From Nymphaea colorata (lineage: Eukaryota; Streptophyta; Magnoliopsida; Nymphaeales; Nymphaeaceae): DNA of 64,000 nt. Under the pieces are notes generated by a model. That model made no database searches. It had not been told where the DNA came from and saw only the letters and a list, made by a program, of their open reading frames with translations. Made by a program: the position numbers and the translations under genes. Shown here one piece after another: positions 1 through 59,663 of the stretch; the stretch's first letter is position 1; every line of letters begins with the position of its first letter. The stretch covers positions 11,640,106-11,704,105 of the forward strand of contig NC_045141.1 in assembly GCF_008831285.2 (NCBI RefSeq), given 5' to 3'.

Positions 1-3000
1 GTGCTGGATCTTGCTACTGCCTTTTGCTTTCGACAACTCCAAGACACAAGATTACGTCCAATGAAAATACAAAAACCAGAAATGGACTTTCTTTGATCGG
101 GATCTCCAGCCCAATCTGCATCTGTGAATGTCATAAGTTGATGTCCAGTAGTTATATTTTCACTCTTACCATAAACTAAGCCATCTCTTGCTGTCCCTTT
201 AAGATATCTTAATATTCTTTTGACAGCATCCATGTGAGTATCTCTAGGTGCATGCATAAATTGGGATACTTGATTCACAGCATATATAATATCTGGTCTA
301 GTAAATGTAAGATATTGAAGTGCCCCAACAATACTTCGATATTGCGTAGGATCTTCATATAACTCCCCATCTTGAGCACTTAGTCTTTGATTTAGAACAC
401 TAGGAGTTCCAACAGGCTTACAATCAGACATACCTGACTTTTTCAACAAATCCAACGTGTATTTCTGTTGTGTCAATGTGAGGCGATTATTGTGCCTATC
501 AATCTCCACTCCAAGAAAGAATCGTAAATCACCAAGCTCTTTCATTTTGAAGTTTTGCATCATCAAAACTTTAGCTTCTTCTATGTGTTTTTCTGAATTG
601 CCTGTGATAACAATATCATCAACATATATAAGAAGTAAAGTAAATATGTTTTCCTTTCGATAAATGAAAAGAGAGTGATCTAGAGGACATCTCCGAAAAC
701 CACATTCTTGAATCTTGCAAGAGAAACTGTCAAACCACGAACGTGAGGCCTGTTTAAGTCCATAAATAGATTTTCTTAGTTTGCAAACCCATGCATGAGA
801 GTCTCCTTTCGTGTATCCTGGAGGTTGTTCCATATATACTTCCTCCCTTAAATCACCATGAAGAAAAGCATTCTTCACATCCATTTGATGTAGTCTCCAT
901 CCATATTCAACTGCCAATGATATAATCACGCGAATTGTTCCCATTTTGATCACAGGGCTGAATGTCTCATCATAATCTTCTCCATATTGTTGTGTAAACC
1001 CTTTTGCTACTAACCTTGCTTTGTGTCTTTCTATGCTGCCGTCAGGTTTGTATTTAATTTTGTATACCCATTTGGAGCTCACTACGTTCTTTTCGTGTGG
1101 CCTCGGAACGATCTCCCATGTTCCACATTCATGCAAGGCATCCATTTCTTCTTTCATAGCCTTTCTCCAATGATGTGATTTTGATGCTTCATCAAATGAA
1201 GTAGGTTCTTCCTCCTTGCCAACTTTTGCCATGAATAACTGAAAATCAAGTGATAAAGAATCATAGCTAACCCACCTGTGAATGGGATGACGAATGCGTT
1301 GGGATCTTCTAAGGTGGGGCATGTTGTCTTCTTCACTGTGAGCATCTCTGTCCCTTAGTCGTCGACTGTAGATAAGACCCGAATACCGATGTGCATCGTT
1401 GCTCTGTTCATTATTGTTTTCGTGATGACTTAATGACTGTGTTGGATCTTCTTGATTTTCACTTTGAGCCATATCCGACGGTTGTATTGCTCTCTCTGAA
1501 TCTTCACTTTGAGGCACATCATTTTCTATAACAGGATCTGCATTGAATAACTGTGTACTGGTCCAGGGATCATAAGATTCAATGGTCATAGGCATTTCAT
1601 TTGTATTATCAAAACTATGTTCATCAAAAATGACATTTCTTGAAGTTTTGATACGTTTAGTTGTTGGATCATAGCATCGAAAACCTTTATATTCATCAGC
1701 ATATCCAACGAATCTACATTGAATAGCTTTGTCTTGAAACTTGTTCCTCAAGGCAGCATCAACGTGAACATAGCATACACAACCAAAAACCTTCAAGTTC
1801 TTGTAATCAGGTTGTTTGCCTAAGAGTGTAAAATATGGCGATTTAGACATCAAGAGTGTCATAGGCAAACAATTTATTATGTATACAGCAGTATGGAAGG
1901 CTTCAGTCCACAAGGAAATGGGCACATTAGTATCATGCATCATGCTCATGGCGCTTTCAACTATATGTCGATGTTTCCGCTCAACTACACCATTTTGTTG
2001 TGGTGTGTAAGGGCAGGAAATTTGTCTAGTTATCCCTTTTTCACGTAGTGTCATAGGCAAACAATTTATTATGTATACAGCAGTATGGAAGGCTTCAGTC
2101 CACAAGGAAATGGGCACATTAGTATCATGCATCATGCTCATGGCGCTTTCAACTATATGTCGATGTTTCCGCTCAACTACACCATTTTGTTGTGGTGTGT
2201 AAGGGCAGGAAATTTGTCTAGTTATCCCTTTTTCACGTAGAAATTCAATAAAATCAAGCGAGGAATATTCTCCCCCTCCATCACATTGAAAATGCACCAC
2301 ATTGGATGAAAATTTAGTTTGAATCATGGCATAGAAGTTTCGAAATATGTGAGGTACTTCTGATTTGTGTTTCATGAAGTAAATCCAGGTGAAACGTGAG
2401 TAAGAGTCAATGAATAAGACATAATATCTTGACCCAGACATGGAATCAATAGGGGCTGGCCCCCATACATCAGAAAAAATAGTTTCAAAAGGTTTGGAAG
2501 CCCTTTGATTTATATTATGGAAAGGTAAAACATGACTCTTACAAAGTCCACAACTTGAACATTTTTTGACACTTGAAGTAAGAGGTAAACTTGATCTTGG
2601 AATGAGACTATCTGTCACAAGTTTTTCAATGAAATGTCGACCACAGTGTCCTAGCCGACTATGCCACAAATCAGACTCCAAAAATTGGTTAGGGCCCCTT
2701 ACTTTTGATTGAAAATGGCAAGAACTTGGCACTGATGACGCATTATGAGAAAGAGAAAATGTCTTCAATCCTATATCAAAAGTGGATGAATCCTTGGGTA
2801 GACATTCCTTGAGGACGTACATATTCCCTTGACGCTCCCCTCTAGCGAACATTTTCTTCGTTTGGAGGTCCTTGACATAGACAGAAGAAGGTGTGAATTC
2901 AACAGAAGAGCTTGTATCATCAATGAGTTTAGAAATGGATATGATGTTCTTTTTGATATTGGGAGCAAGAACAACATTAGACAGTGATAGAGACGAGGAT

Positions 3001-4157
3001 GACAATGGAATATGTGCATTTCCAATATGTGTAATAGGATGAGATTTTCCATCACCTGTTATAATGCAACTTCTACCGTAATGAGGGGATAAGTTAGTCA
3101 ATTTACCTGCATTTCCTGTCACATGGGTAGCTGCACCTGAATCCAAGAACCATTCTCCCTGCTCATTTTGCTTTATAGTCATCTTTGAGAATGCGGCCAT
3201 CAATAGCTGTTGCATATCTTCAGTGGTGGATTTAGAACTTTGTCCTCCTTGTTTATAATCATGTCTTACCCCTTTGTTTTTATTTTGAGGATTAAACCAA
3301 CATTGTGCCTTCATGTGTCCTTTCTTGTTGCACTGAAAACAAATTGGTATTTTTCTTGAAGTATCCAAAAGAGACATACCTTGGTTATGTGGTGTTGGTA
3401 GAATGCCACGACCACCATGGTTGGAGTTCCCATGGCTCTTACCAAACTTTACATTCATAGCCAACACATTTTGGGAGTTCCCTTGATCAGTCCTTTCAAT
3501 GACTCTTTTCATATTCATTTCATGTTGGAGAAGTTTACCTTGTAGTTCGTTGAAGGAAGGCAGAACAGGAAGGACCTCAAGAGCTGTAATAAAAGCATGA
3601 TAATCATGCCCAAGTCCATTCAAGGTTTGCTGCACCTTTTCCTTATCAGAAATGTTATTCCCTGAGGCAGCAAGTTGGTCTGCGACGGCCTTAATACGCC
3701 CCAAATAATCCATGATAGACGTTGAACCTTTGCTCAAATTCTGAAATTCTTTCTTTAAGTACATAATTCGAGCTTCTGATATTTGGGAAAAGGTATCAGC
3801 AAGGGTTTCCCATAATTCTTCTGCAGTACAATCATCAGAAACTGAAAGTAACACTTGTTGAGATAAAGTGGACAAAATATACGCAACCAGACTTTGATCA
3901 CGTCTCATCCACATAGCATGTTCAGGATTGTTGTCTTCATGAACAGCAATAACTTCTCCTGCCTCATTTTTTATTTCCTGTAAGACGGATATTGGTGGAG
4001 CCTTTGTTGAACCATCGAGATGTCCAAAGAGGCCTTGACTTCTTATGAAAGGCATGATTTGCCTTTTCCAGATCAGATAATTCTCATGGTTGAGTTTTTC
4101 GGTAATAAGGTGAGGAAGAAAACTTGAGGACATGCCAGAATGCGAAAGGTTTTCCAT
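1..4157 (-). CDS. Copia gag-pol polyprotein, element 1 (partial, open to window edge)
   Basis: This frame starts at Met 4157 (next Met at 4133) and I found no stop down to position 1, about 1385 codons. The order is: gag; a CX2CX4HX4C zinc knuckle (CFQCNKKGHMKAQC, about 3300-3341); protease DSGA near 3130-3148; the GAG-pre-integrase HxxxH/CxxC region about 2545-2680; integrase catalytic Asp (SDVWGP near 2460, CDGGGEYSS near 2270) and Glu (NGVVERKH near 2170); RT (ARLVAKGFTQ near 1000, YVDD box 612-626); and RNase H (SWSCRKQKAVARSS at 3-41). A perfect 192-bp tandem duplication (1855-2046 and 2047-2238) adds 64 codons in frame and gives a second copy of the integrase Glu block. Stops were checked by hand at many points, not by computer. 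Whether the integrase still works is unknown. Confidence 0.88.
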   Translation of the reverse strand, partial: MENLSHSGMSSSFLPHLITEKLNHENYLIWKRQIMPFIRSQGLFGHLDGSTKAPPISVLQEIKNEAGEVIAVHEDNNPEHAMWMRRDQSLVAYILSTLSQQVLLSVSDDCTAEELWETLADTFSQISEARIMYLKKEFQNLSKGSTSIMDYLGRIKAVADQLAASGNNISDKEKVQQTLNGLGHDYHAFITALEVLPVLPSFNELQGKLLQHEMNMKRVIERTDQGNSQNVLAMNVKFGKSHGNSNHGGRGILPTPHNQGMSLLDTSRKIPICFQCNKKGHMKAQCWFNPQNKNKGVRHDYKQGGQSSKSTTEDMQQLLMAAFSKMTIKQNEQGEWFLDSGAATHVTGNAGKLTNLSPHYGRSCIITGDGKSHPITHIGNAHIPLSSSSLSLSNVVLAPNIKKNIISISKLIDDTSSSVEFTPSSVYVKDLQTKKMFARGERQGNMYVLKECLPKDSSTFDIGLKTFSLSHNASSVPSSCHFQSKVRGPNQFLESDLWHSRLGHCGRHFIEKLVTDSLIPRSSLPLTSSVKKCSSCGLCKSHVLPFHNINQRASKPFETIFSDVWGPAPIDSMSGSRYYVLFIDSYSRFTWIYFMKHKSEVPHIFRNFYAMIQTKFSSNVVHFQCDGGGEYSSLDFIEFLREKGITRQISCPYTPQQNGVVERKHRHIVESAMSMMHDTNVPISLWTEAFHTAVYIINCLPMTLREKGITRQISCPYTPQQNGVVERKHRHIVESAMSMMHDTNVPISLWTEAFHTAVYIINCLPMTLLMSKSPYFTLLGKQPDYKNLKVFGCVCYVHVDAALRNKFQDKAIQCRFVGYADEYKGFRCYDPTTKRIKTSRNVIFDEHSFDNTNEMPMTIESYDPWTSTQLFNADPVIENDVPQSEDSERAIQPSDMAQSENQEDPTQSLSHHENNNEQSNDAHRYSGLIYSRRLRDRDAHSEEDNMPHLRRSQRIRHPIHRWVSYDSLSLDFQLFMAKVGKEEEPTSFDEASKSHHWRKAMKEEMDALHECGTWEIVPRPHEKNVVSSKWVYKIKYKPDGSIERHKARLVAKGFTQQYGEDYDETFSPVIKMGTIRVIISLAVEYGWRLHQMDVKNAFLHGDLREEVYMEQPPGYTKGDSHAWVCKLRKSIYGLKQASRSWFDSFSCKIQECGFRRCPLDHSLFIYRKENIFTLLLIYVDDIVITGNSEKHIEEAKVLMMQNFKMKELGDLRFFLGVEIDRHNNRLTLTQQKYTLDLLKKSGMSDCKPVGTPSVLNQRLSAQDGELYEDPTQYRSIVGALQYLTFTRPDIIYAVNQVSQFMHAPRDTHMDAVKRILRYLKGTARDGLVYGKSENITTGHQLMTFTDADWAGDPDQRKSISGFCIFIGRNLVSWSCRKQKAVARSS
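1855..2238. repeat. Perfect 192-bp tandem duplication within integrase
   Basis: Positions 1855-2046 and 2047-2238 are identical by eye over the full 192 bp. 192 is 64 codons, so the polyprotein frame is kept. On the minus strand the unit runs from LREKGITRQISC through QQNGVVERKHRHI to NCLPMT, so it includes the third catalytic residue of the DDE integrase. Confidence 0.95.
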
Positions 4158-4365
4158 GACAGCAGAAAGGAATGGTATATAGGTAGAAGATGAGAGGGAA
4201 AGAAGACACGATATAGCAAGATGTGTCCTTGGTAAGCAAGAAGAAAAAGGAACAAGAATTGCGCAAGAGACAAGTAAATTCAGGATAGAGACAAGATGAG
4301 AAAAGAGTTCTAACCAGATCAGACCTGTTTGGGCATTTCGTTTGGTAGAGATAACGTAACCTGGC

Positions 4366-4377
4366 GCTCTGATACCA
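4366..4377 (-). other. Primer binding site, element 1
   Basis: The minus strand reads TGGTATCAGAGC, complementary to the 3' end of plant initiator methionine tRNA, directly next to the LTR end. This is the usual minus-strand primer site of plant copia elements. Confidence 0.9.
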
Positions 4378-4429
4378 TGATAGAAATGTAGCACCAATAT
4401 CTGTAACCCGAAAACAGCACTCACGCAGG

Positions 4430-4469
<40 letters not shown>

Positions 4470-4826
4470 ACAAGAAGAAACTGAGGAGAAGAAGCCGTAG
4501 CCAAAATGGTTTGCACGGCCTCTATTTATAATCTCATTTTCAGAATTCTAAGAGTCTCCAATTGTAGAATCCTAAGAGATTTCACAAGCTCCAAGGACAT
4601 TAATTACATCATAGAAACCTAAGAGACTTCACATATTACAAGGATATTAACTACAACATAGAATCCTAGGAGACTTCCCATATAACAAGGATATTAACTA
4701 TAACATAGAATCCTAGGAGACTCTTCACATGTCACAAGGACATTAAATATTTTAACACATTCTACAAGGAGGTGGAATCCTAAGAGACTCCTCTTCAACG
4801 TGCTGGTGAAGGCTTTATATTTTAAC
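4378..4826 (-). repeat. 5' LTR of copia element 1
   Basis: About 449 bp, bounded by TG...CA on the minus strand. It contains a TATAAATA box (4523-4530) that could drive transcription leftwards. A (CT)n tract on the minus strand lies downstream of that box (about 4435-4463). Boundaries follow from the adjacent primer binding site and from the abrupt end of element 2 coding sequence at 4827. The 3' LTR is outside the window, so boundaries and age cannot be checked by LTR comparison. Confidence 0.82.
4523..4530 (-). promoter_or_regulatory. TATA box in LTR of element 1
   Basis: TATAAATA on the minus strand within the LTR, about 365 bp upstream of the gag start, followed by a pyrimidine-rich leader. 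The position fits an LTR promoter. Assigned by motif only. Confidence 0.55.
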
Positions 4827-7800
4827 ACTTCTTACTCTTCCATGTAACCAAGTTGGATCCAATAAACACACAAAACCCAGTAGTGGATTTTCTGTCAAGG
4901 TGACATCCCGCATAATCAGCATCAACATACACAGATATAGTGAGAGATGTACCATTTTGAAAGAAGAGTCCCATTCCTGGTGAATTTTTCAGATACCTGA
5001 GAATCATCATGGCAGCATCCCAATGGACTTTCTTGGGCTTATCCATAAATTGACTCACTCTGCTGACAGCATAGGCAATATCAGGTCGAGTAACAGTGAT
5101 ATATAGGAGCTTCCCAACAATCCCTCTATATTGTCTAGCATCAACATCTTCAGTATCATCATCATACAAGCGAGTATTGATGTCCATGGGTGTAGAGGCA
5201 GGTCGACATCCTAGCATACCTGTCTCTTGCAAGACATCAGTAACGTATTTCCTTTGGCACATGATAAGACCCTTCTGATTTCTGGCAAACTCAATACCTA
5301 GGAAATAGCGTAGCTCACCAAGATCCTTGGTGACAAAGTGTCGTCCAAGGACGCCCTTGATGTTGGAAATCCCCTGAATATCATCCCCTGTAACAATGAT
5401 ATCATCAACATAGACAAGAACTATCACTGTACCTGTAGAAGTTTTCTTGACAAAAAGGGAATGATCAGCCGAAGAACGTCTGAAGCCCTCATACTCAATA
5501 TTCTCTGATAATTTTTGAAACCAAGCTCGAGGACTTTGTTTCAGACCATAAATTGCCTTTCTCAATCTACACACTTTCTGACACTCCCCCTCAGCAACAA
5601 ACCCTGGTGGTTGCTGCATATACACTTCTTCATGTAGGTCACCATACAGAAAGGCATTTTTGACATCAAGCTGTGATAGAGACCAATTCTTGCTGACGGC
5701 AACAGCGAGAAGAACCCGTAAAGAAGCATGTCGGGCCACAGGAGAGAAGGTATCATAATAATCAACCCCATAAGTCTGAGTATAGCCTTTTGCAACCAAG
5801 CGAGCCTTATATCTCTCAATGCTGCCATCTGCTCTGTATTTAACAGTAAATACCCATCGACAACCAACAATAGCTGCATCAGATGAAGGAGTAACTAGTG
5901 TCCAGGTGCCTCTAGACTGAAGGGCATCCATCTCTTCTTGCATAGCTGCGGCCCATTTGGGATCAGAAAGAGCGTCCATAGGAGTCTGTGGAAGAGCTAC
6001 AGCCGACAGTCCCTTGACAAACTGGCGGTAAGTAGGAGTGAGTCGAGCCATGGACAAATGACCAGAGAGAGGATGCATAGTGCAACTGCGTTTGCCTTTC
6101 CTTTGAGCAATAGGCATATCAAGTTCATTAATATGAGGACCAGTAGCATGCTCTGGAGAGTCCCCTGTGGCATCATCACATAAAGAATGGTCAGCAGGAT
6201 TTGTGTGTTCAGGAAGTACCTTGGGCATGCTGGGTGAAGGCACAGGAGCACAGGGGGCAGGTTGAACAGGTTTAGTGCGACGTTGGTAGATAGCCCCAAA
6301 ACGCGAAGCAACGGGTTGTGGATAACTCATGAGAGGTAAAGGAAGGTGGACTTCATCACTAAATTCAGGCACCCTTAATTGAGTTCCATTGGGAGAGAAA
6401 TAAGAGGTGGACTCAAAAAATGTAACATCAGCACTCACATAATATCGACGAGTAGAAGGATCATAACAACGATATCCCTTTTGAGTGCGGGAATAACCAA
6501 CAAAGATCGTTTTGATAGCCCGAGGGGATAACTTATCTCGCCCAGGACCAAGTAACTGAACAAAGGCAACACATCCAAAAATACGAGGTGCAACAGAAAA
6601 CAATTCTCTGTCAGGAAAAAGAACAGAGAAAGGAATAAGATCTCCCAACACGGATGACGGCATGCGATTAATAAGATAGCATGCTGTAAGAACAGCATCT
6701 CCCCAATAAGAATGGGGAACATGGCTGTGTATGATAATGGTTCTGGCGACATCAAGAATATGGCGGTGTTTTCTTTCAGCAACCCCGTTTTGTTGAGAGG
6801 TATAGGCACAAGAAGTTTGGTGAATGATACCCTTATCCCTGAAAAATTGTTCTAAAGAGGAAGCACAGAACTCAAGAGCATTGTCAGAGCGCACAATCTT
6901 GACACAAGTATCAAACTGAGTCAGAATTTCATTGATAAAATTTTTGATTACATGACCCGCTTCAGATTTGTGTTTCATAAGAAAAACCCAACTAACACGA
7001 CTGTAATCATCAACAGCAACAAGATAATACCGATGACCCTGAAGGTCAGGAGTACGACTCGGGCCCCAAACATCAAAATGAAGTAACTCAAACACAGAGT
7101 GGCTACTTCTACTAGACCGCGGAGGAAAGGATGACCGATGGTGTTTGCCTAACTGACAAGACTCACATTGAAAAGACGACTTATGAGACAGCTGAGGGAG
7201 AACATGCAGCAGTTTCTGAAACGGGAGATGTCCAAAACGTAAATGCCAAGTATAAGCCGAGGATGAGGACGACCCCGACGAGGTAGATCCAGCAAAGGGA
7301 AAGGAGTGCACTAGCCTGTAGAGACCTCCCTGTTCACGGCCACTGCCAATCACCCTGCCCGTCAGTATATCCTGAAACACAAGAGAGGAAGAGTCAAATA
7401 TAGCACGACAATTTAATTCTCTGGTAATCTGACTGATAGAAAGTAGGCTATGGGGGAATTCTGGTGCATGAAGAACGTGCTGCAGCGGCAATGATGAAGT
7501 AAGTTGGACCTCTCCATGTCCAACAACTGGTGAATCTTTTCCATCTGCTAGAATAACCGAACGACCCGGTGGAGTAGGGACGTAAGAGGTGAATTGCATC
7601 TTATCCCCACAGAGATGTGTCGATGCACCAGAATCAATAAGCCAATCTGTAGTGTCAGGAGGAGAGCAGACTGTACAAGCAGAATACATACCAGATGAAG
7701 AAGCACTCGCAGCGGTAGGAACAGTAGAAGTGGTCGGACCAGGGGATGGATGGGCGCTGTCGCCAATCAAGTGCCTCAACTGAGAGAGAATGTCATCTAC

Positions 7801-8697
7801 ATGCAACTCACTGGAGGATACCATGTGCTGAGGCTTAGGCTGCTCAGGAGAATCAGTAGATACAGTCTGATTTGCAAAAGCTGGACGACCATGTTTCTGC
7901 CAACACTTATCCACAGTATGACCAATGCGGTGACAAAACTGACATACAGGGCGCGAAGGGGTATTGCCACGGCCACGGCCCCCTCTTCCTCTGGCAAAAA
8001 AGGGTCCTCCTCTGCCACGAGTAGCAAGCATAGCAGAAGTGGTATCAGGAACAGTCGATGCAGAGATCGGAATTCTGCTGAGCCTACTGTAAGCCTCATC
8101 AATAGGAGGAATCGAGGGACTAGTAAGCATTTGGTTCTTTGCGGATTCATAAACAGAGTCTAAACCAGAAAGAAAGACCCCTACCATAAGCATATCTCTG
8201 TATGCCTTTTGTTGTTCACACTTGCATGCGGGAAAGTAGCTATTCAGTCTCTCAAACATGGACTTGAGACTAGAATAATAAGTGTGAAGAGGTCTGCCAT
8301 CTTGGCGCATCTGATGGATATCATGATGAAGCTGCATAATGCGCGTTTCATTTCTTGCCTGTGAATAAGTGGCAGCAAGGGAATCCCACATATCCTTTGC
8401 ACTGTCCTTGTGCAAGACTTCATTTGCAATTTCTTGTGAGAGAGTACCAACAATCCATACCATAACCAATGAATTATCTTTAAACCAAGTAGTATATTTT
8501 CCTACCTTCTGTACGGGCTCGGGCTCCAATATGAGATGTTCCTTCTCATGGGCGATCAAAGTTCTTTTTACTTGCATGGCCCACATCTCGTAATTACCCC
8601 CATCCATTTTGGTGATAATGCTGGAAAATGGGGAACTCTTCATCTCTCCCGACGATACAAAGGAAGAGGTATTAGCGCCACTACTAATTTCAGACAT
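4827..8697 (-). CDS. Copia gag-pol polyprotein, element 2 (3' end displaced by insertion)
   Basis: A 1290-codon uninterrupted copia polyprotein. In order: UBN2-type gag (residues about 25-200); RGRGG-rich linker; zinc knuckle CQFCHRIGHTVDKC (252-265); protease DWLIDSGAST (Asp 355); GAG-pre-integrase WHLRFGH; integrase with FDVWGP, RSDNALEF and NGVAERKHRH; RT with ARLVAKGYTQ and YVDDI (5397-5414); and RNase H YVDADYAG up to VTWKSKK. The frame runs 5 bp into the LTR of element 1, giving an artificial Cys-stop ending at 4822. All catalytic motifs seen are intact, so the only obvious lesion is the insertion. Start Met 8697 is followed by a typical copia gag N terminus. Confidence 0.95.
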
Positions 8698-9309
8698 CTT
8701 TCAACACAAAGGAGGAAACCGAGCCACGGAATAGGAAGTGCAGGCAAAAGAATACAATCACATATCGAAAGACAACATGCTGATCATGAAGCAATATGTA
8801 GTTAACGCAGGTAGCAATCCAGAAGTCCGATCGGCGAGAAGAGGCAACAGCAGAGCTGAACGAAGAGAGATACCAGAGACGACGGTGAGAAGAAAATCAG
8901 CGTGCAGAACCACGGGCAGAGCAGCGGCGGAACAGCGGCGGAGCAGCGTGCAGCGGAGGAGCAGCGTGCAGAGCAGCGGCGGAGCAGCATGCAGCGGAAA
9001 GACGCAGAGAGGAAAAAATCAGCGTTGAGGCGGCGGCGAAGGCAGACGGGCGGCGGCGGCGCAGGCGGACGGGCGCAGGAGGACGGGCGCAGGGAGACGG
9101 GCGGCGGTGGCGCAGGCGGACGGGCGCAGGCAGACAATGGGTAGGGCGACGAGGGGCAGCAGGGATGGATCAGGCGGCAATGGACAGGGCGGCAAAGGGC
9201 GAGGCGGCAATGAACAGGGCGGCACAGGGCGGCGGCGGCGACTGACGCCGATGAGGCGGCGGCGGCGCCGCTCAGTCGGCGACAACTCGCTGAGGAGGAG
9301 ACGGCTGGA
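8698..9309 (-). other. GC-rich leader of element 2
   Basis: The untranslated leader between primer binding site and gag is far richer in G and C than its surroundings, with many CGGCGG, GCAGCG and GGGCGCAGG motifs in imperfect tandem (about 8920-9290). Open frames across it on both strands are low-complexity by-products. It may fold strongly in RNA. No conserved protein is visible. Confidence 0.6.
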
Positions 9310-9616: not shown

Positions 9617-9966
9617 CTATAAATCATTGTCACAAATATTGTTTTCAGGTATTAAACAACGAGGTTTTTTTAGGTATAATATGATAAAAGTTTTTTTTGG
9701 AAAAATATCAGAAAAACTTGATAAATTTTTAAAAAGTTGAAAAAGGAAAGATCATAAAATAACATGTGAAAAATGTGAAAATAAAAATCTGGTAACTAAA
9801 AAATGTAAAAGACACAAAAATTGGAAAAATGAAAAAATAAGAATATACAAAAAAACGAGGTTTGCATATTTTCCTTTTTGGCATTTTTTTTTTAAAAAAA
9901 TGCCTTTTTTTCTTTTTGGCTGACCCATTTGTCCCATTCTTTCCAAACTGTGACAATGCTATAAAC
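9617..9966. mobile_element. MITE, CATTGTCACA family, copy 1
   Basis: A 334-bp AT-rich element (9625-9958) with inverted ends CATTGTCACA and TGTGACAATG. It is flanked by CTATAAAT (9617-9624) and CTATAAAC (9959-9966), an 8-bp target duplication with one mismatch. The interior carries a GGTATAATATGA start followed by A/T-rich sequence alignable to copies at 23455 and 57891. It has no coding capacity. The 8-bp duplication fits a hAT-type non-autonomous element, by inference. Confidence 0.8.
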
Positions 9967-10329
9967 TAATTTTAAAATGTTTTTAAAGTTTTAGTTAATT
10001 TTTATATAAAAAAATAAATTTTTTAGAGTAATTTCTTACTGATACACAATGGCTTCACTGGATCAGTTCACTGATCAGCAGCTCCCCTGATTTGGATCCG
10101 ACTTTTACAATACTGGCTGGACGTATATCTGCTCACTAGTAATTTTTAACTGGTACTTTCTTAACCTTTACATCTCCAGATCACAAGGGGTGATGAAATG
10201 GAAATTTTGATAGTGATAAAATGCCTGGTTAACTGAAGTATCATAATTCACCAGAATGTCAGTTTGGTTCTCAACCTTTTTTATGGGCAATAGTTTAAGA
10301 CTTTTTCCTGTCAACTTTTATCTATGCAG
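9967..10329 (+). other. Presumed intron sequence before first visible ClpB exon
   Basis: AT-rich, without coding signal, ending in a pyrimidine-rich tract and TATGCAG acceptor at 10329. Because the next exon starts in the middle of a conserved ClpB domain, this is read as the 3' end of an intron that also holds the MITE and nested copia elements. The upstream exons are not visible. Confidence 0.65.
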
Positions 10330-12655
10330 GTGCTATGAATGGAGCAATGGATGCAGGAAACTTGTTGAAACCAATGCTGGGTCGCGGAGAGCTCCGATGT
10401 ATAGGAGCCACAACATTGAATGAGTATAGGAAATACATTGAGAAGGATCCTGCTCTAGAGCGCAGGTTTCAACAGGTGTATTGTGGTCAGCCATCTGTTG
10501 AAGATACTGTTTCGATTCTTAGAGGATTACGTGAACGTTATGAGTTGCATCATGGAGTTAGAATATCAGATAGTGCACTTGTTTCAGCTGCCATTCTTGC
10601 TGATCGCTACATCACAGAGAGGTTCCTACCTGACAAAGGTAATGTAGTCATGACAGGATTCTTCAAAACTCTTGTTGTTTAAACTTTTAAAGGCTAAAGC
10701 ATTTCTACGAATATTCATGGGAGTGGAAAGTTCTGTTCTTATCTGTGGCTAGCTGATTGCAGCTATTGACCTTGTCGACGAAGCTGCTGCAAAGCTGAAA
10801 ATGGAGATCACCTCCAAGCCTATTGAATTGGATGAGATAGATCGAGCAGTTCTGAAGCTAGAGATGGAAAAGTTGTCTTTGAAAAATGACACTGACAAAG
10901 CTGCTAAAGCTCGTCTAACCAAACTGGAAACTGACCTTGAGACACTTAAACAAAAGCAGAAGGAGCTGGCAGAGCAGTGGCAGCATGAAAAAGGCCTTAT
11001 GACTCGAATCCGATCGATCAAAGAGGAGGTAATTTATCGATTAATTACTGTTTCTAATCTTATCTGTTTGACCGTTTGATCTTCACTTGCTGAAACTCAT
11101 TGTTCTCTGATTCCACCAGGTGGATAGAGTCAACTTAGAGATGGAAGCTGCAGAACGTGAATATGACCTAAACCGTGCTGCAGAGCTCAAGTATGGAACC
11201 TTAATTTCACTTCAAAGGCAGCTTGAAGAGGCAGAGAAGAACCTTTCTGAATTTCAGAAATCTGGAAAGTCACTACTTCGAGAAGAGGTCACTGATCTTG
11301 ATATCGCAGAAATTGTGAGCAAGTGGACTGGAATTCCATTATTGAACTTGCAGCAATCTGAAAAGGACAAGCTAGTTTTACTAGAACAGGTTCTTCACAG
11401 AAGGGTTGTTGGTCAGGATATTGCAGTTAAATCTGTCGCTGATGCAATTAGACGGTCAAGGGCTGGATTATCAGATCCCAATCGTCCAATAGCAAGCTTC
11501 ATGTTTATGGGTCCAACAGGTGTTGGTAAAACAGAGCTTGCGAAAGCTCTTGCTGGGTATCTCTTTAACACAGAAAATGCCCTTGTGAGGATTGACATGA
11601 GTGAGTACATGGAGAAGCATGCAGTTTCCCGCTTAATTGGTGCACCTCCTGGTTATGTGGGCTATGAGGAAGGGGGGCAGTTGACTGAGGTTGTTCGCAG
11701 GAGACCCTACTCTGTTGTGCTCTTTGATGAAATTGAAAAGGCACACCATGATGTTTTCAACATTCTTCTTCAGTTATTGGATGATGGAAGAATAACTGAT
11801 TCACAAGGACGTACTGTGAGCTTTACAAATTGTGTTGTCATAATGACATCAAATCTTGGGTCTCACATAATTCTAGAGACACTTCGGAGTGCAGAAGGTT
11901 CAAAAGATGCAGTCTATGATATCATGAAGAGGCAGGTTGTAGAATTAGCTAGGCAGACGTTCCGTCCAGAGTTCATGAACCGTATTGATGAGTATATTGT
12001 CTTCCAACCGTTGGACTCAAAAGAGATCAACCGTATCGTTGAAATACAGGTGACAGCCTTCTCTCACTGAACCTAATCATGATCTCTTGTTCCTGTTTTA
12101 CCATGCAAACAACTTGTCTTTGGTCATTCAATTTAGGAAGAGTGGTCTCTTGTCATTCATCCTATAATTCGTCTTTGTTGAGTTACCTAAATTGCTTCAG
12201 TACTTATTTTATTTTTGTCTTGAGTTTCTGAATTTTTCACAGCACTTAATTTTGCTGCATCTAGCAGTCCTCCCCAAATGTGAAGAATAGTTTTATAGTC
12301 TGAGACTGATGAATCTTGCCATGGCTTGTGTTGGTTTTTCCAGCTCAAACGCTTGCAAGATCGGCTTAAACAGAAGAAGATAGACATTCAGTTCACAAGT
12401 GCTGCAGTTCAGCTCTTGGGCATGCTAGGGTTTGATCCTAATTTTGGTGCTCGGCCTGTCAAGAGAGTGATACAGCAGATGGTGGAAAACCAAGTAGCTC
12501 TCGGTGTTCTGAAGGGGGATTACAAAGAAGATGACTCTCTGTTGCTAGATGCAAACCTGTCCCCTGAATTAAAGGATGTCAGTCTTCCCAACAGACTGGT
12601 GATTACCAAAATCGATAATGCTTCTCCGAAGGATGAGCTGGTAGCAGCTAGCTAA
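10330..12655 (+). CDS. CLPB4: ClpB/Hsp100 AAA+ disaggregase, mitochondrial CLPB4-like (3' part)
   Basis: Four exons with GT-AG introns: 10330-10638, 10763-11028, 11120-12049, 12344-12655. They encode about 605 residues, the C-terminal 60% of a roughly 970-residue protein. The first exon covers the end of the first AAA+ domain ([13 protein letters not shown], arginine finger ALERRFQQV). Exon 2 and the start of exon 3 give the coiled-coil middle domain. Exon 3 has the second Walker A (GPTGVGKT), Walker B ([11 protein letters not shown]), sensor 1 (MTSN) and [12 protein letters not shown]. Exon 4 has sensor 2 (GARPVKR). ClpB is an ATP-driven disaggregase working with Hsp70. From knowledge of the plant paralogues, it is closer to mitochondrial CLPB4 than to chloroplast CLPB3, for example in [11 protein letters not shown] and ILETLR. 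The N domain and first Walker A are absent and expected left of the window. No internal lesion was seen. Confidence 0.93.
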
Positions 12656-22218: not shown

Positions 22219-25200
22219 TTATCTTTTCATGAATTGACTTAGTCTTCCCACAACAAAGTTAATATCTGGCCGAGTCACTATCACATAAAGAAGCTTACCA
22301 ATCAACGATCTGTAGAATCGTGAAGCTATCTCTTTGGTGTCATCACCATATAGATAGTGAAGATACTTTCTTTGTGATAACACCACTTCTTTATTACTAC
22401 GAACAACTTCAATGCCAAATAAATACCGTAGTTGGCCAAGATCCATGGTAACAAAGTGTCTTTGTAGAAATTCTTTTGTTAGTGTTACCTTTTGCTCACA
22501 TTTACCTGTCAAAACAATATCATCAACATACATCACTAAGACAACTCTGCTTCTAGATCCTTTCTTGATGAACAACGAATGCTCCACTTGAGACCTCTTA
22601 AAGTTACATTCTAACACAATTTTGGAGAATTTGTAAAACCAAGCACGAGGACTTTGTTTCAAACCATATATAGTTTTCTTCAACCTACACACCTTATCAC
22701 ACTCCCCTAACGTTCAATACTAGGAGGTTGCTGCATATAAACAGTCTCATCGAAATTCTCATATAAGAAAGCATTTTTGACATCCAACTGATATAAGGGC
22801 AAATCATTTTTGACACAATAAGAAGTATAGTCCTCAACTGCCCACAGGAGAGAATGTCTCAAAGAAATCGATGCCATATGTTTGTATATACCTTTTTGCT
22901 ACAAGACAAGCTTTGTAGTGCTTCACTGAGCCATTGGACAGATACTTTATGATGAAGACCCATTTGGAGTCAACGACATCACAATGGGAAGGGGGATCAA
23001 CAAAGTCCCATGTCCCCCATTACAGTAGAGTTTCCATCTCATCCTCTATAGCTTGCTGCCACCTCAGGTCAAGTAATGTTTGCTCGTGACTAGAGGGAAC
23101 AAAGTTCACGAACAAGGCAGACACAAACTGTTGCAGGCACCAACACTATCAGTAGAAACAAACTTAGAAATAGGATGAAGACTACACTATCGTTTGTCTT
23201 TGCGTAAGCAATAGGTAAGTCTAAAGACATTTTAGAAAAAATCCTGAAGAGGAGGACCAATGAGGTCAGGTGTACTTTACATCATGAGAAGCAATTGGTG
23301 GGCAGACATGAACACAAGCACGTCGGCAGGTGTAGACCAGTGGGAGATCATGGAATCTACTTACACTTAGAAAAGAATCACAATGAGTAGACTGAAGGGA
23401 AAATGGTGGTATCGATAAAGGAATAGATGATGACATGTCTGATAGTGGTGAAGTCATTGTCACATAAAATGTGTATTATTTAAAAAACAACGCAAATAAT
23501 ACTCGAGAAGTCAGTCGTATAAAATGGCAATTAAACCCATTTTTTTCCAAAAAACACCAGAAAGGAAAAAGCATGAAAAGAAAATGCTTATTATACATGT
23601 TTTTTGTATTTTTTTATTAATTTTTATTTTTTATAATTTTTAGGATTTATTAATTGTTTTAAATTTTTTAAAAATTTACCGAGATTTTTCTGAGATATTC
23701 TGAGATATACAACTTTGTCGTATTATGCCCAAGAAATTTCTCATCGTATAATACTTGTATATGATATATGTGACAATGGGTGAAGTAGACAGAAAATAAG
23801 GACGTGACTCAAAGAATGTAACATATGTATTGATGTACTGCTTATTAGAGAGTCAAAATAGATATAAACCTTTTAGTTTTTTGGGTAGCCAATGAAAACA
23901 CATTAAATTGATTGAGCACCAAGTTTATCTTTATTGGGGGCTAAGGATGCAAACAAAGCAAGTACACCCAATGACTTTGGGTGGAGAAGAAAACAAGAAT
24001 CTATCTGGATAGAGAAATTGAATAGGAATTTGATTGTCAATAATGATGATGGAAGTTGGTTAATTAGGTAACATACAGTGAAATGACATCACCCCAAAAA
24101 TGAGTTTGAACACAACTATGTAATTGAAGATGTTTACATTCGGCAATGCCATTTTGTTGAGAAGTATGAGGACAAGTAAATTGAGGGCAAATTCCATATT
24201 TGGTGTAAAAGTGCAATAATGTATTGGATTTAAACTCAAGGGCATTATCAGTGCGAATGTTTTTTACAATGGAACCAAACTGAGTCTTTATTTTAATAAT
24301 GAAATTTTTAGGAACAAATAACATCAGACCTATCTTTTAACAAGAACACATGACTAAGATGAGAAAAACATCAACAATAACAAAATAATACTTAAACTTG
24401 GCCCGACTTATCCGGCTAGGCCCCCAAACATGATCATGAGTAAGATAAAAAAAACATGACTAGATGGGCTAATACTGAAAGGGAAACTACTTTGACAGGC
24501 CTCACACTGAAATGACTTTCATACAAAAATATTAGGTATGGCACCATGAAGCTTGGACAATAATGGATGTTCTAGTCGGAGATGCCATTGATATAGGATA
24601 GGCTTTGATAGAGCAGTAGGTGCTACAATCTTCATTAGTTTCGACAATATGTAAACTCTCTTGTGCTCATGGCTACTACTAATCGTCTTCCCAATTTGCC
24701 TGTCTTGAAATAGGCATGAACCAGCATCAAATATAGCTCTACAACACAAATCATTTGTCAAGTGAGTAACAAAGAGATGGAACTAGAGAGTTTCACATCC
24801 CCAACTCCCATAATAGGACAAAGTTTCCCGTTGGCAAATTTAACATGTTAGGTTGTGAAAAGTGATGCAATGATGCAAATAAGTTAGGGTGACTGCAAAA
24901 ATGTTTCGAAGCTCCAGAATCAACAATCCACACGGTACCTGGTTCACGGGAAGTACTACCGACAAATAAAGAAGAATCCATCACACAGTGGAGACAACTG
25001 CAGACGTCATGTCAAGGAGAGAACCCTGGGCCATAAGTTGATCATGCTTTACCTTGCTCATGGTCATAGTAGAGACATTAGGAGTCGTCATGGAAGGAGT
25101 CTCTCCAAGTGGTGTCTTAGCTAGGGCAGTACCTATAGGAATCTGAGAAGTGAAGGGCCCTCTACTACCTGAAGTACTAAATCCTCTGCCTTGAGAAGTG

Positions 25201-38259: not shown

Positions 38260-40583
38260 AGGGCCTTAAAAATCAAAATTTTCACATTCTTCAAGTATAT
38301 AAATCTGAATATAAAGTCTTTGTAAACTAATTATCGTTTGATTAACGTTGTTAATCGTTATGAAATTGCTGTTGGCAAAGTTACTTTTGTAAAAGGTGAA
38401 TGACAAAAAGCACTTTGTTGCCTTTAAAAAATACTTCTGTATGTTTTACTTTATACGTGTTATCACTAGGCAACCAATTCATATTTACTTTTATTTTTAA
38501 TTTTCAATGTTTATTGAGGAGAAACTATTTTACTCCATGGTCATATCTTTTACTTTCAAGGTTTTGGCTTGTTTCTTGTGGATCTAGAGTATATCTTTTA
38601 ATTATAGTGTCAAGTTTGCTACTATTTGTAGTTCAAAGGAGTAACACACTAAAATATAATAACAACGATGACATTCAAACCTTGAATCTCTTGAGTGTAA
38701 GCTGTCTTGCCGCCTAGTTGCACTCCGCTCAATTCTTATTTATTTAATTTATGTATTTTATGAACTATATACATTACATACATATTGCATATCTTAGGCT
38801 GCCCAATGTGTGCCATTGCCACCTACCATTTTTGGGAAATTCAATCTTATTGCCGAAGTGCGCCATTGCTGCCAGCCGTTTTTAGGAAAACGAGGTCAAA
38901 ATGCCCAAATTTCTGTAAAAATTAACATTGAAGTCTTTAATACATAAACATTGAAATCTTTAATGCATAAGCTCTCTTAACCATAATATGTTAAATGCAT
39001 TTGCAACTTTTGCAAGGGGAATCTAATTCAGTGCAACCTGGAGTTGTTATAAAGTAGGCTTACCCACCTAGTGCAACTCATATGAGTTCTAGGTGGATTT
39101 TTTGGTAGTTATGGCATAATGAGGTCCTGCATAGTAGATTGATACACAAGTTGAATTACAGAGATATTATTTATCAAGTTATCTTAATGCAATTCAAACG
39201 TTGGTTTTGAGTTTGGGCTAAAAGACATTAGTGTTTGAGGGCTATTTATCTTAAAGTCATATAGTTAAGTGGCTGAGAGTAGTATTTGTGTGCATTCGGA
39301 ACCAAAGCTTCTTGGAAAAGCATGTTGTTCATAGACTTGAAACTTTGCAAAATTGAGAATCTTGGTAGAGAAGAGAATTTATATTGTTGATTCTGGAAGA
39401 AATGAAGAATGAACCAGTGAGAACAAGAATTTGACAAGAGAGATATTGATAGCCATCATAGGAGAAGGGATTTAAAGAGAGAAAAATGATGCGGAATTAG
39501 CCTATGTGTTTGTGTGCATGTTGCAAGTGAATTTTTAAATGAAAACTTGCCACATGTAAAATTGAAATAATGTGCTTTTAGAACATGCTAGATATTATGT
39601 GGTATGGCATGTGGTTGTATAGGAAGTATCAGTAGGTACATAAGATACTTTTGTTTAAAAGATATTATATAGGGCAGGTCGATTTATACTTTACATTGTT
39701 TATTTGAGTTTTGTATTTGTTTCTATGTTATCCAGCGAAAGTGGGGTGTTATGTTAGATGGTTATACACGAATATGTTATAGTTCAACCTAATGTTTTGC
39801 CCAATATGCTATTCATCAACCAGATACATTGAGATATAATGTTATCACTTGAGTAGAATGTGAGCTATGATGTATGATTATGTAAATGACTTTTAAAGGT
39901 AATAATGTGTATGTTGCCTAGTGAGACATTACAAAATGATGTTTTACATCTTTATGACCAAATCTACTTTATGAGTTGAGCTCATTTTAGAATGGAGTTT
40001 TTTTTTTTTTTGGTGATAGATTGTCTTCACTAAAGAGGTGAGGGTCGGGTCCTCTTTTGTGGCTGGACCTGACCCAACAATTGGCATGAATGATGATGCC
40101 ACATTGCCCAACCCGAAGCTTAGAGGGCTTGTGCTACAGATTCCTACTTGATAAATTTTATGAACTACTACCATAGAAAACACTGTGAGTTGCTTAAAAA
40201 TAATGGAACACCAAGTTCTTCCACTCCATGGTTAAGGGCAGACAGAGAAAAAATTGAATTGGTGTGACCTTACATGAGAATAGAACAATAATGGAGATAG
40301 AAAAGATATTTGAAACTAGTATTCATTATTTTTGCAATCTATTGGGTCGAGATCAAGCCTTGGGCAGACTTCCAATGGAGATTGGAGCTGGCCTTCTAGT
40401 CACTCACAAGGAAATCAAGATGCCCATGGGTACTATTTATAGGAAGAGATTCAACGAGCTATCATGCAATTGTTGTAACAATAGACTTATCGACCTATAT
40501 TAGAGTAATGTTAAGGAAAATGTCTTCGATTGATATAAGAAACTTCTTTGTGATAGGTTGTCTTGTGAAAGTCATTAGCAAAA

Positions 40584-54944: not shown

Positions 54945-55240
54945 CTTGTATAAGAGAATACTTTTGATCAATGCCATTGCATTATATGCAACAAAATCAC
55001 CTTATTAGAATATTAATCATCAGAGTTATTTTTCCAATGATGTTTAGACTGGATTAACCACCATAAGGATTTTAAATGTTGGTCAATCATTAATCCCAAG
55101 TTCTAACTTGGGCCAGTTGAGGTGATTGATAACGAAGTTGGATAACGTGCTTTCTTTTTTTTAGGAGGGTGATCATTCTCGATGCCCGTGAAAACTCAGT
55201 TTGAGCACAAAATCTTGGATTTATTTAAGATATTGTTATT
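52420..55240. other. Intergenic sequence, no gene seen
   Basis: Mostly AT-rich. It contains a short GCAAT repeat (52602-52619), two related fragments with GGAGCCAAGG (about 53190-53330 and 54040-54200) suggesting an old repeat, and a (TA)n array at 54902-54941. No coding potential recognised. Confidence 0.45.
54902..54941. repeat. (TA)n microsatellite
   Basis: About 20 TA units. Confidence 0.92.
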
Positions 55241-57174
55241 ATTACAATTTAAACTAATTCTTTCTTAATATTTTTTGATTTTTTATTTTTGCTCAGTTTT
55301 TCACATTGCTGCTTTGTAAATTTAAAAGACATTTTTGAGGTACTAAAAACAGGTCATGCATCTTAAAAAGTTATTTAACAGATAGAACACTTTGTGAACA
55401 TATAATGAATCTGTCATAAAGGTTGGCACAGATTGTTGAATACCTAATTCTAATGTTCTATGAATTTATCTCAAAGACGAGCAAATTTATAAAACATTCA
55501 CAAAATGGTTCACTACCAAACAACCTCTATAAGATTGGTTGGGCGGGGACTTTGGCTCTCTCAATAGCTTGGATTTGTTGTTCGATTCAATTGCTAAATC
55601 ATTAAGCAAAATCAATTTTGAGAATATTGATCGAGCGCACTAGCAAACAAGCTATTTAATTTTTCTTTCGTTTCCTTTAATCTTAATTTAGATAATCTAA
55701 CAAGCCTTTTTATTTTTTCTTTCATTTCTTTTCATCTTAATTTAGCTAACCAAACACGTGATTGATTACTTTTTCCCTCTCTTTCATTCACTTTCCATCT
55801 ATCCAAACAAGACATTGAAGTTTTGTTTCTTCTCTTAAGTTTCTAAACTAAAGCCCAAAAAATGATCTGGAGACAATTGAAGGCGCATTTGATGGACCAA
55901 AGAAATCATAGAAGGTGCTGATTTGATATAGCAACATGTTTCAGAGATCGGTTTCCATCGTTGTCACATATATAGTGTACGGGTATTATACGGAGAGGTA
56001 TTTCTTCGTCCAGGTTGCTAACATGGCAGCTGTATTCTCATTTTCTCACTTTATAATTAGAGTGTCATTTTCGTAATTTTCTATGGTAAACCATTTGGCT
56101 CCTACTCAAGGGGAATCTGGCGTTTAACCAACAACTGTATTTTAGATATTGTTAGTTCATACAAATAACTTGCGTCGTGCGTTATGTTAGTGTGATACCG
56201 TTTTGATTAGTTATAAAAAACTGGCATATATATATATTGTATTTCGACCCTTTTTAATACTTTGAAACTATAATTTGGCCTTTACAACAAAAAATTCCTA
56301 ACTCTGCCCTTAAATTTGACTTCTTTTGCCTACTACCCATATAGTTAATGTATACAACGGCTACCAACACGGTTAGTTGTCCAATTAATGTATGAGCTAC
56401 CAGTGTTACTATGTCACTTTTAATCATTTCAACCAAAGAAAATAAGTTGATCAAGAATTCTTTTGTTTTCGGGGCCCAATGAACGAGACCATCGGAAGTG
56501 ACCAAACTTTGCTTCCAAAGGGCCATGTCTTTGCTGCACTTTCCTATACTTCACAAAGCACAATTCCCTAAAAAGTAAAATGACCATTCTCCTTTGTTTA
56601 CGTCTGCCACATGTCATTTTGAAATCCATGTGTATGACAGGTACCTATAAAAGAGGGTCAAGGGTAGCAGGTGTTGTATTAAAAGCTCCTCCGCCATGCA
56701 CAGCCATGACACGTAGCTCATGCTATTTACCATTGTGCCCCATATCAAATGATTTTTTGTATTAATTTGGCATGCTTACTACCTACCAACAACATTTGAA
56801 AGGTCACCTCCGTGTCCTTTCCCTCTCCACGCATTGGGTCAATCTGTGACTTGGACCTAGTAATATATGCACTTAACTAGACGTCTCTCCTTCAGAATTT
56901 ATTAGACTCACTTGTTTTCTATCTTTTTGTAGACCCAGTGTTGTCTTCTTAGCTCCAATAGTAATACATAAAATTTTTCTAATGATAAAAGAACATTTAG
57001 AGGCTGTTTGGCATTAGGATCGATCTTGTAAGTCATGAATCTATCATACAATTGAGGTAGATTCATAAAATACTACTGTTTTATGAGTGTACTCCAAATT
57101 TTGAGGCAGATTTGTGGAACATCCACTTGTTGTTCCTAATGTCAAAAGGTTTTGATATTGTCAAATTTTCTTTT
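55241..57174. repeat. Tandem duplication, unit A (1.9 kb)
   Basis: It begins ATTACAATTTAAACTAATTC and ends TATTGTCAAATTTTCTTTT. Unit B follows directly and repeats the same order of blocks at high identity. Unit A holds a deleted relic of the CATTGTCACA MITE (about 55954-56015) and one short (TA)n. No gene is supported. Confidence 0.88.
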
Positions 57175-57890
57175 ATTACAATTTAAACTAATTCTTTCTT
57201 AATATTTTTCGAATTTTTTTTATTTTTGCTCAGTTTTTTCACATTGCTGCTTTGTAAATTTAAAAGACATTTTGAGGTACTAAAAACATGTCATGCATCT
57301 TAAAGAGTTATTTAACAGATAGAACACTTTGTGAACATACAATGAATTTGTCATAAAGGTTGGTGCAGATTCTTGAATACCTAATTCTACTGTTCTACGA
57401 ATTTATCTCAAAGATTATCAAATTTATAAAACATTCACAAAATGGTTCACCAACAAACAACCTCTACAAGATTGGTTGGGCGGAAACTTTGGCTCTCTCA
57501 ATAGCTTGGATTTGTTGTTCGATTCAATCGCTGAATCATTAAGCAAAATCAATTTTGAGAATATTGGTCGAGCGCACTAGCAAACAAGCTATTTAATTTT
57601 TCTTTCGTTTCCTTTAATCTTAATTTAGATAACCAAACAAGCCTTTTTATTTTTTCTTTCATTTCTTTTCATCTTAATTTAGCTAACCAAACACTGGTTA
57701 TTTTTTCCCTCCCTTTTATTCACTTTCCCTCTATCCAAACAAGACATTGCAGTTTTGTTTCTTCTCTTAAGTTTCTAAACTAAAGCCCCAAAAATGATTC
57801 AAAGACAATTGAAGGCACGTTTGATGGACCAAAGAAATCATAGAAGGTGCTGATTTGATATAGCAACATGTTTCACAGATCGGTTTCCAT

Positions 57891-58215
57891 CATTGTCACA
57901 TATATTGTGTACGAGTATTATATAGAGACATATTTCTCAGGTATAATATAACAAAGTTGTATATCTCGAGAATATATTGGAAAAACCTCGGTAAATTTTT
58001 TAAAAATTTAAAACATTTAATAAATTATCAAAATTAATAAAATAAAAATTAATAAAAAAATACGCAAAAAAACAGCATACAATACACATCTTTTCACTTT
58101 TTTTTTATTTTTTGTTTTTTTTTTAAAAAGCCGCGTCTAATTGCCGTGTTATAAGACTGACTTATTTTTCACGTATTTAACACGTTTCTTTTTATTAATA
58201 CGTGTTTTAAGGTCC
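57891..58215. mobile_element. MITE, CATTGTCACA family, copy 3 (right end lost)
   Basis: It begins CATTGTCACATATATTGTG and carries the family interior (GGTATAATATAACAAAG, TTGTATATCTCGAGAATAT, CCTCGGTAAATTTTT, ACTGACTT). The expected TGTGACAATG end is not found; homology fades near AATACGTGTTTTAAGG. In unit A the same locus keeps only the left 50-60 bp, so about 250 bp was lost there. Confidence 0.7.
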
Positions 58216-58427
58216 TGTAGGTTGCTAACACGGCGGCTGTATTTTCATTTTCTCACTTTATAATTAGAGGGGCATTTTCGTAATTTCCTATGGTAAACCA
58301 TTTGGCTCCTACTCAAGGGGAATCTGGCGTTTAACCAACAACTGTGTTTTAGATATTTTTAGTTCATACAAATAACTTGCACGAGCGTTATGTGAGAGTG
58401 AAGTGTTTTGATTAATTATAAAAAGCA

Positions 58428-58431
<4 letters not shown>

Positions 58432-58490
<59 letters not shown>

Positions 58491-58615
58491 AGGCTTTCAA
58501 GAAAAATGGTAAAACCTCTTAAGATGACGGTATTTTAGATATTTTTAGTTCATAACAAATAACTTGCGTAGTGCGTTATGTGAGTGTGATGCGTTTTGAT
58601 TAATTAAAAAAAACT

Positions 58616-58702
<87 letters not shown>
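58432..58702. repeat. Paired long (TA)n arrays
   Basis: Two arrays of about 28 and 42 TA units, each preceded by a copy of the same ~95-bp block. Tyr/Ile-repeat open frames across them are artefacts. Confidence 0.93.
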
Positions 58703-58704
<2 letters not shown>

Positions 58705-59663
58705 CCAGCCATGGCCCTTGCTGACATTTTTTGAAAACTAAAAAAATTTCATTGTAAATTTAAAAAATAAGTAGCGTAACCTATATAAAAAGTTTTATGA
58801 AAAATTTGTATTTTGACCCTTTTTAATACTTTGAAACTATAATTAGGCCTTTACAACAAAAAATTCCTAACTTTGCCCTTAAATTTGACTTCTTTTGCCT
58901 ACTACCCATTATAGTTAATGTATACAACGGTTACCAACACGGTCAGCTGTCCAATTAATGTATGAGCTATGAGTGTTACTATGTCACTTTTAATCATTTC
59001 AACCAAAGAAAATAAGTTGATCAAGATTTCTTTTGTTTTTGGGACCCAATGAACGGACGTCATGTTTCCGCCCAATGGGGTGAAGTGACCAAACATTGCT
59101 TCCAAAGGGCCATGTCTCTGACTGTTTCCACGTGTTCCTTGTTTGCTGCACTTTCCTATACCTAACAATGCACAGTTTTTAAAAAGCAAAATGACTATTC
59201 TCCTTTGTTTACATCTGTCACATGTCATTTTGAAGCTGGTTAAATCTTTTGTGTACCTTTGCATTGTGTACAGGTCCATGTGCATGATAGGTGCCCATAA
59301 AAGAGGGTCAAAGGTAGCAGGGGTCAAGGGTAGCAGGTGTCGTGTATTAAAAGTTTTGCACCCATAAACAATCATGACATGTAGCTCCCCTCTCTTGCTA
59401 TTTACCATTGTATCCCATATCAAATGATTTTTTGTATTAATTTGGCATGCTTACTACGTACCAACAACATTTAAAAGGTCACCTCCATGTCCTTCCCTTC
59501 TCCACGCATTGGGTCAATCTATGACTTGGACCTAGTAATATATGCACTTAGCTAGACGTCTCTCCTTCAGAATTTATTAGACTCACTTTTTCTATCTTTT
59601 TGTAGACCCAGTGTTGTCTTCTTAGCTCCAATAATAATACATAAAATTTACTAATGATGAAAA

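Follow-up and report, generated by a model that had tools for sequence, protein, structure and literature searches.

A high-copy MITE family of Nymphaea colorata shares its ends with a 3.3-kb element that has hAT transposase domains

The question raised by positions 9617 to 9966 of this stretch is what kind of mobile element lies there and which transposase is likely to have moved it. A sequence-only reading of the window (the whole stretch of 64,000 nucleotides, C4:11640106-11704105 of a 407.8-Mb assembly of 783 contigs, which was the genome searched) had described a discrete 334-bp element with recognisable ends and 8-bp flanking repeats, and this description stands. The element, referred to here as copy 1, has exact 10-bp TIRs (CATTGTCACA at 9625-9634 and TGTGACAATG at 9949-9958), a G+C content of 24% and flanks that agree at seven of eight bases, agreement being far poorer at lengths 2-7 and 9-12 than at 8. 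Its parts are as follows:

9617..9624, no strand: left 8-bp target duplication CTATAAAT of copy 1, 7/8 bases identical to the right flank
9625..9958, plus strand: copy 1, a complete 334-bp MITE, from its ends and flanks; by the tree described below, of the copy1-type (apparently older) subfamily
9959..9966, no strand: right 8-bp target duplication CTATAAAC of copy 1, 7/8 match to the left flank

The window was scanned for pairs of 10-bp inverted repeats without mismatches, 80-1500 bp in span and flanked by 8-bp repeats with at most one mismatch, low-complexity words being excluded. Three pairs were returned: copy 1, 38502-38956 and 23455-23778, of which the last alone has 8/8 flanks. In 40 Markov-3 random windows exact pairs were absent and pairs with up to one mismatch averaged 0.125 per window, so the pair at 38502-38956 may be due to chance. 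A special foldback structure was looked for in the MITE and dropped as an explanation because fold energies fell just mildly below those of shuffled sequences (z -1.4, with 8/100 shuffles as good, and z -2.0, with 5/100).

Copy 1 has a copia element on one side and exons of a ClpB-like gene on the other; the copia frames (3-4547 and 4825-8700) and the MITE lie upstream of these exons (10299-12652). None of 10 peptide words from the N-terminal and first-AAA part of ClpB matched anywhere in the stretch; the gene may accordingly have its 5' part outside the left window edge, or may have lost it. The copia polyprotein frame 3-4547 (minus strand) also contains a perfect 194-bp tandem duplication (1855-2240) with identical head-to-tail copies, the result of a very recent event or of an assembly error.

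The same ends and interior had been said to recur at 23455 and 57891, giving three to four copies in 64 kb, and both statements have to be modified. At 23455 there is indeed a complete insertion with a perfect 8-bp duplication and 12-bp TIRs, but it lies in the opposite orientation to copy 1 and is only 61% identical to it (189/312 aligned bases in a global alignment; local similarity E 9e-13 over 123 bp). At 57891 the left end is present and the sequence follows the family profile in alignment, but TGTGACAATG is absent on the right and there is no recognisable duplication. A fourth copy, at 55959, is a duplicate of the one at 57891, the two being paralogous via a local duplication whose units are spaced about 1.93 kb apart; the window therefore holds three independent insertions. 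The G+C content of copies 1-3 is 23-24% (A+T 76-77%). The additional features are:

23447..23454, no strand: target duplication GGTGAAGT of copy 2, left side, 8/8
23455..23778, minus strand: copy 2, a complete 324-bp MITE of the copy2-type (apparently younger) subfamily in a copia relic, from ends, flanks and alignment
23779..23786, no strand: target duplication GGTGAAGT of copy 2, right side, 8/8
57891..58218, plus strand: copy 3, a copy2-type MITE without a right terminus or recognisable duplication, from alignment and tree
55959..56008, plus strand: copy 4, an internally deleted paralogue of copy 3, from the local duplication 55239-57178 / 57173-59853

Copy 2 also allowed an empty site to be reconstructed. 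When copy 2 and one GGTGAAGT are removed, a copia frame is open across the junction (VTFFESRPYFLSTSPLSDMSSSIPL), and the filled site has stops in all frames; the same frame carries a stop further upstream in the relic, and a reverse-transcriptase piece and an integrase piece (the latter below its cut-off) lie nearby on the same strand. The local duplication at 55239-59853 consists of one unit of roughly 1.9 kb and another of roughly 2.7 kb, with pieces 84-93% identical and MITE remnants inside, and includes a 182-aa open frame without a Pfam match.

That the family is a high-copy one, as had been proposed, was borne out by the whole-genome search. Copy 1 as query gave at least 42 matches (the best 40 of 441 candidates being scored) and copy 2 at least 41 (the best 40 of 914). 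At three mismatches or fewer, 219 genome sites match the 35-bp left end of the younger subfamily and 15 that of the older one, the reversed pattern giving 0 in both cases. Thirty-seven copies are 301-369 bp long and lack coding capacity (longest stop-free run 107 aa); short, A+T rich, noncoding and present in many copies, the family answers to the description of a MITE. When 37 two-ended copies and copy 3 of the window were placed in a tree, 18 formed a copy1-type group (median distance 19% to their own majority sequence) and 20 formed a copy2-type group (10.9%); this difference in divergence suggests an older and a younger wave, with the split being partly a sampling effect of drawing the groups from two best-match searches. 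A subterminal GTATTA occupies its expected position in 23/37 copies on the left and in 11/37 on the right (left in 10/1850 shuffles); this is weak evidence because the copies are related by descent, and inside single copies GTATTAT is clearly enriched in copy 2 only.

Several observations on the arrangement of family members may be added here. Two loci, L109 (C6:25258895-25259794) and L110 (C3:7474408-7475307), are 900-bp stretches that are 94.7% identical, flanks included, and their 35-bp terminus recurs in at least three further places (C3:13497341, C6:25076175 and C6:25221579); these are MITE remnants within a bigger repeat and owe their spread to another mobile or duplicated unit. Close pairs of family members, about 80-400 bp apart, occur at G000:C8:24051108-24051588, C12:15910108-15910950 and C1:37651680-37652304. 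One pair is inverted, and inverted neighbours of this sort could give rise to hairpin transcripts.

The 8-bp duplication had been taken to point to mobilisation by a hAT transposase, and tabulating the flanking 8-mers supports this. Among 69 loci (L001-L069), ends chosen blind to the flanks could be placed within two mismatches each in 52, window copies 1 and 2 included. Eight-bp flank repeats matching at seven or more positions were found in 24 of the 52 (11 perfect), as against 0.68% agreement at 8 bp when left and right flanks of different loci were paired. No other length (4-7 or 9-12) stands out, with 0-5 of 52 loci at one mismatch or fewer. In a further 12 loci chosen for their terminus (L100-L111), eight had both ends at MITE distance (L100, L102-L104, L106-L108 and L111), six of these eight with a flank repeat of 7-8 of 8; in L105 the right end was not found in the fetched locus. 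Thus, the ends and the duplication recur in the family overall, yet 17/69 loci are without such an end pair and 28/52 are without a clear 8-bp repeat.

The 24 targets show a preference of their own. Nineteen of them have T as the second base and 17 have A as the seventh (backgrounds 0.34 and 0.33), 14 having both, and the favoured letters, in contig orientation, form the palindrome GTTTAAAC. The pattern nTnnnnAn outnumbers nnnTAnnn by 14 to 7. It is a preference here rather than a rule, the copy 2 target GGTGAAGT being a misfit. There is precedent for such a preference in Hermes and hobo, for which nTnnnnAn is described in excerpts of two papers (PMC10368747, PMC8961557).

Some copies clearly did arrive by other routes. 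Copies 3 and 4, three locus pairs recognised by flank homology (L006/L019, L011/L017 and L051/L056) and the L109/L110 stretches, alike over the full 900 bp fetched, are what would be expected if transposition had played a minor part and most copies had been carried along in segmental or tandem duplications or within other repeats. We nevertheless regard this as very improbable as the main route. Setting aside L011, L056 and two loci in AT repeats (L050 and L052) leaves 20 cases with 8-bp repeats (16 with T as the second base, 13 with A as the seventh) whose 300-bp flanks do not match one another, and copy 2 has its empty-site copia frame.

The sequence-only reading had also proposed a search for a larger element that shares these ends, and this search was successful. 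The lead came from L101, where the recurring terminus has DUF659 and other transposase-like pieces on its inner side. With a 1500-bp query running inward from this terminus, the terminus was seen to adjoin the same interior at no fewer than 16 places besides itself (best 40 of 537 candidates scored), the pieces being 81-94% identical. Two copies were delimited:

L112:101-3407: larger element, 3307 bp, exact TIRs, perfect 8-bp duplication GTGTGAAT on both sides
L113:101-3401: larger element, 3301 bp, exact TIRs, perfect 8-bp duplication GTTTAAAC on both sides

These are 98.7% identical, their similarity ends within 3 bases of the element ends, and their TIRs are the same 10-bp CATTGTCACA as in the MITEs. 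In L113 we detected zf-BED (PF02892, 27.6 bits, cut-off 20.6), DUF659 (PF04937, 161.4 bits, cut-off 34.7) and Dimer_Tnp_hAT (PF05699, 49.1 bits, cut-off 21.4), with BED and DUF659 on a 589-aa piece and the hAT dimerisation domain on a 136-aa piece of the minus strand; L112 has the same BED, DUF659 and hAT dimerisation pieces above the Pfam cut-offs. The pieces share one frame, with a single intervening stop in L113 and a pair of them in L112; these stops may be true interruptions or may lie in an intron. Neither fetched copy has an uninterrupted transposase frame.

Other approaches to a larger element gave negative results. No exact family end was present within the 1.5-kb flanks of the 30 best PF05699 loci (a one-mismatch match in five), several of which form families with other downstream sequence. 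Among 206 end pairs 421-3200 bp apart in loci fetched earlier there was no convincing duplication, one agreeing at 7/8 in an A-run. None of 148 strong PF05699 matches (of 150 listed places, two on small contigs being excluded) had a listed terminus or copy within 6 kb, against a random expectation of 0.75 and with 100 of the 219 termini compared. The larger element was probably missed by this route because its dimerisation piece scores 49 bits and the weakest listed match 76.

Two further observations concern hAT sequences in this genome. At L101:101-183, the position where a decayed hAT copy ends, there is an 83-bp near-perfect palindrome in which two left-end termini lie face to face, with no clear duplication. 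There are also other multi-copy hAT families (L071, L072, L077, L080 and others) with different sequence downstream of the transposase, some locus pairs being 99% identical over about 3 kb.

How closely the MITEs match the 3.3-kb element differs between copies. In several MITEs, L106, L111 and L065 for example, both ends were aligned to the larger element by BLAST: (i) in L106, bases 1-159 match 1-151 of the element and 192-326 match 3160-3307; (ii) in L111, bases 1-153 and 253-294 align to its two ends and (iii) in copy 2, bases 1-182 match 1-176 (E 4e-14) and 286-324 match 3270-3307 (E 2e-4). With the TIR excluded, the left 60 bases of eight of nine copies beat 200/200 shuffles, the exception being copy 1 (24/200 as good). 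At the right end, the number of shuffles as good of 200 was 0 for L103 and L111, 1 for L106, 2 for L065 and 5 for copy 3; similarity was not significant in L062 (9), copy 2 (16) or L043 (53). These left- and right-end matches identify the younger copies as deletion-type relatives of the larger element, sharing up to about 130-180 bp at the ends.

For copy 1, once the TIR is passed, neither end is significantly similar to the corresponding end of the larger element (left 24/200, right 29/200). It is tied to the larger element by the TIR and by its similarity to copy 2, and we infer its descent on these grounds. When MITE left ends were compared with the right end of the element, copy 1 was matched by 1/200 shuffles and the other eight copies by at least 9/200 each; the copy 1 resemblance may be chance among 27 comparisons.

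Taken as a whole, the evidence leaves us nearly certain that copy 1 belongs to a non-autonomous hAT MITE family, derived by internal deletion within the lineage of the 3.3-kb element and presumably multiplied by the transposase of that lineage through insertion into 8-bp targets. The 8-bp duplication, the short TIRs, the nTnnnnAn preference and the BED and hAT dimerisation domains of an element with the same ends are all features of hAT transposons. The TIR length lies within the 5-27 bp given for hAT elements in part of a Drosophila study (PMC3517528). One point does not fit. The TIRs of hAT elements start with C/T-A-R-N-G, a rule from which members depart, and the CATTG of this family has T instead of A/G as its third base. 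The ends had been called unfamiliar for a hAT element; they are indeed one base off the hAT start, but the larger element that bears them has hAT transposase domains, and this coding evidence outweighs the misfit.

P elements too begin with CA. They and their MITEs also make 8-bp duplications, according to the portion of an Anopheles paper that treats them (PMC1562414), and plant MITEs of the P and Novosib class are mentioned in excerpts of two others (PMC7385995, PMC10004981), so that a P-superfamily MITE had to be considered. However, the Anopheles excerpt gives P TIRs of 27-31 bp, as opposed to 10-12 bp here, and the P transposase domain PF21787 had no match in the genome, an absence that is unproved as the control genomes were silent as well. 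The hAT domains of the larger element with the same ends largely refute this reading, to which we give very little credence. Slighter still is the chance of a Mutator-like MITE with shortened duplications: such MITEs are prevalent in plants (PMC12550479, in part), but the larger element has hAT domains and the duplication length is 8, grapevine MULE duplications being 9 bp in the section concerned of PMC2528002 and length 9 giving 0/52 perfect and 1/52 at one mismatch or fewer here.

The hAT MITE reading also has clear parallels. An 8-bp duplication, the T2/A7 preference and short TIRs are common to this family and to Hermes, hobo and Ac-type hAT elements, and BED and hAT dimerisation domains are found both in the hAT superfamily and in the 3.3-kb element; the ends CATTGTCACA and the DUF659 in the transposase set it apart from Hermes, hobo and Ac-type elements. 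The quasi-palindromic subterminal repeats of Hermes, as excerpted (PMC10368747), recall the inverted GTATTA/GTATAAT motifs here, a resemblance only. In Brassica nigra, BniHAT-1 and BniHAT-2 (673 and 666 bp; TIRs of 25 and 12 bp; 8-bp TSD; 70 and 75% A+T; PMC7385995, in excerpt) are, like this family, under 1 kb, A+T rich, flanked by 8-bp TSDs and present in hundreds of copies; set against them by description only, the present family is shorter (301-369 bp in 37 copies). Another parallel is Mar, a hAT (Buster) MITE of Drosophila with a relic full-length partner (PMC3517528, in part), the common features being a MITE and a full-length hAT element with the same TIRs and an 8-bp TSD. The TSD consensus given there for Mar is nnnTAnnn, whereas nTnnnnAn is the commoner pattern here.

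According to part of a survey of 207 plant genomes (PMC12550479), hAT MITEs are prevalent in nearly all species. A full-text literature search for the end CATTGTCACA, with most subscription journals outside its scope, gave no plant transposon paper among the matches listed, and one for CATTGTCAC with 'transposable' and 'inverted repeat' returned a match on Trichomonas Mutator-like elements and no plant transposon. The anatomy fits a known kind, the plant hAT MITE, and we do not claim that the family itself is undescribed.

The most likely scenario for the origin of the family is that internal deletion in the lineage now represented by the 3.3-kb hAT element with CATTGTCACA TIRs gave rise to the MITEs. 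The shared ends and equal target duplications suggest that the hAT transposase of this lineage would excise them, by a chemistry presumed to be that known from Hermes. Cut-and-paste insertion would then take place into 8-bp targets resembling the palindrome GTTTAAAC, with gap repair producing the 8-bp duplications. The products of MITE insertion are directly visible at the loci described above.

The finding leaves hAT biology as known unchanged. What it provides is a link from a high-copy MITE family with hard-to-recognise ends to an identified larger element of its own genome, together with measurements of the target duplication and of its base preference, which makes it possible to annotate hundreds of copies and to study how a hAT MITE originates. 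We would also raise, tentatively and as something we think somewhat doubtful, the idea that the 3.3-kb CATTGTCACA element represents a hAT lineage that was recently, and perhaps still is, mobile and that has driven several MITE waves (an older copy1-type, a younger copy2-type and a AAAAAACGTG-type). If this is true, the genome of this early-branching flowering plant would record one transposase lineage swapping its passengers over time.
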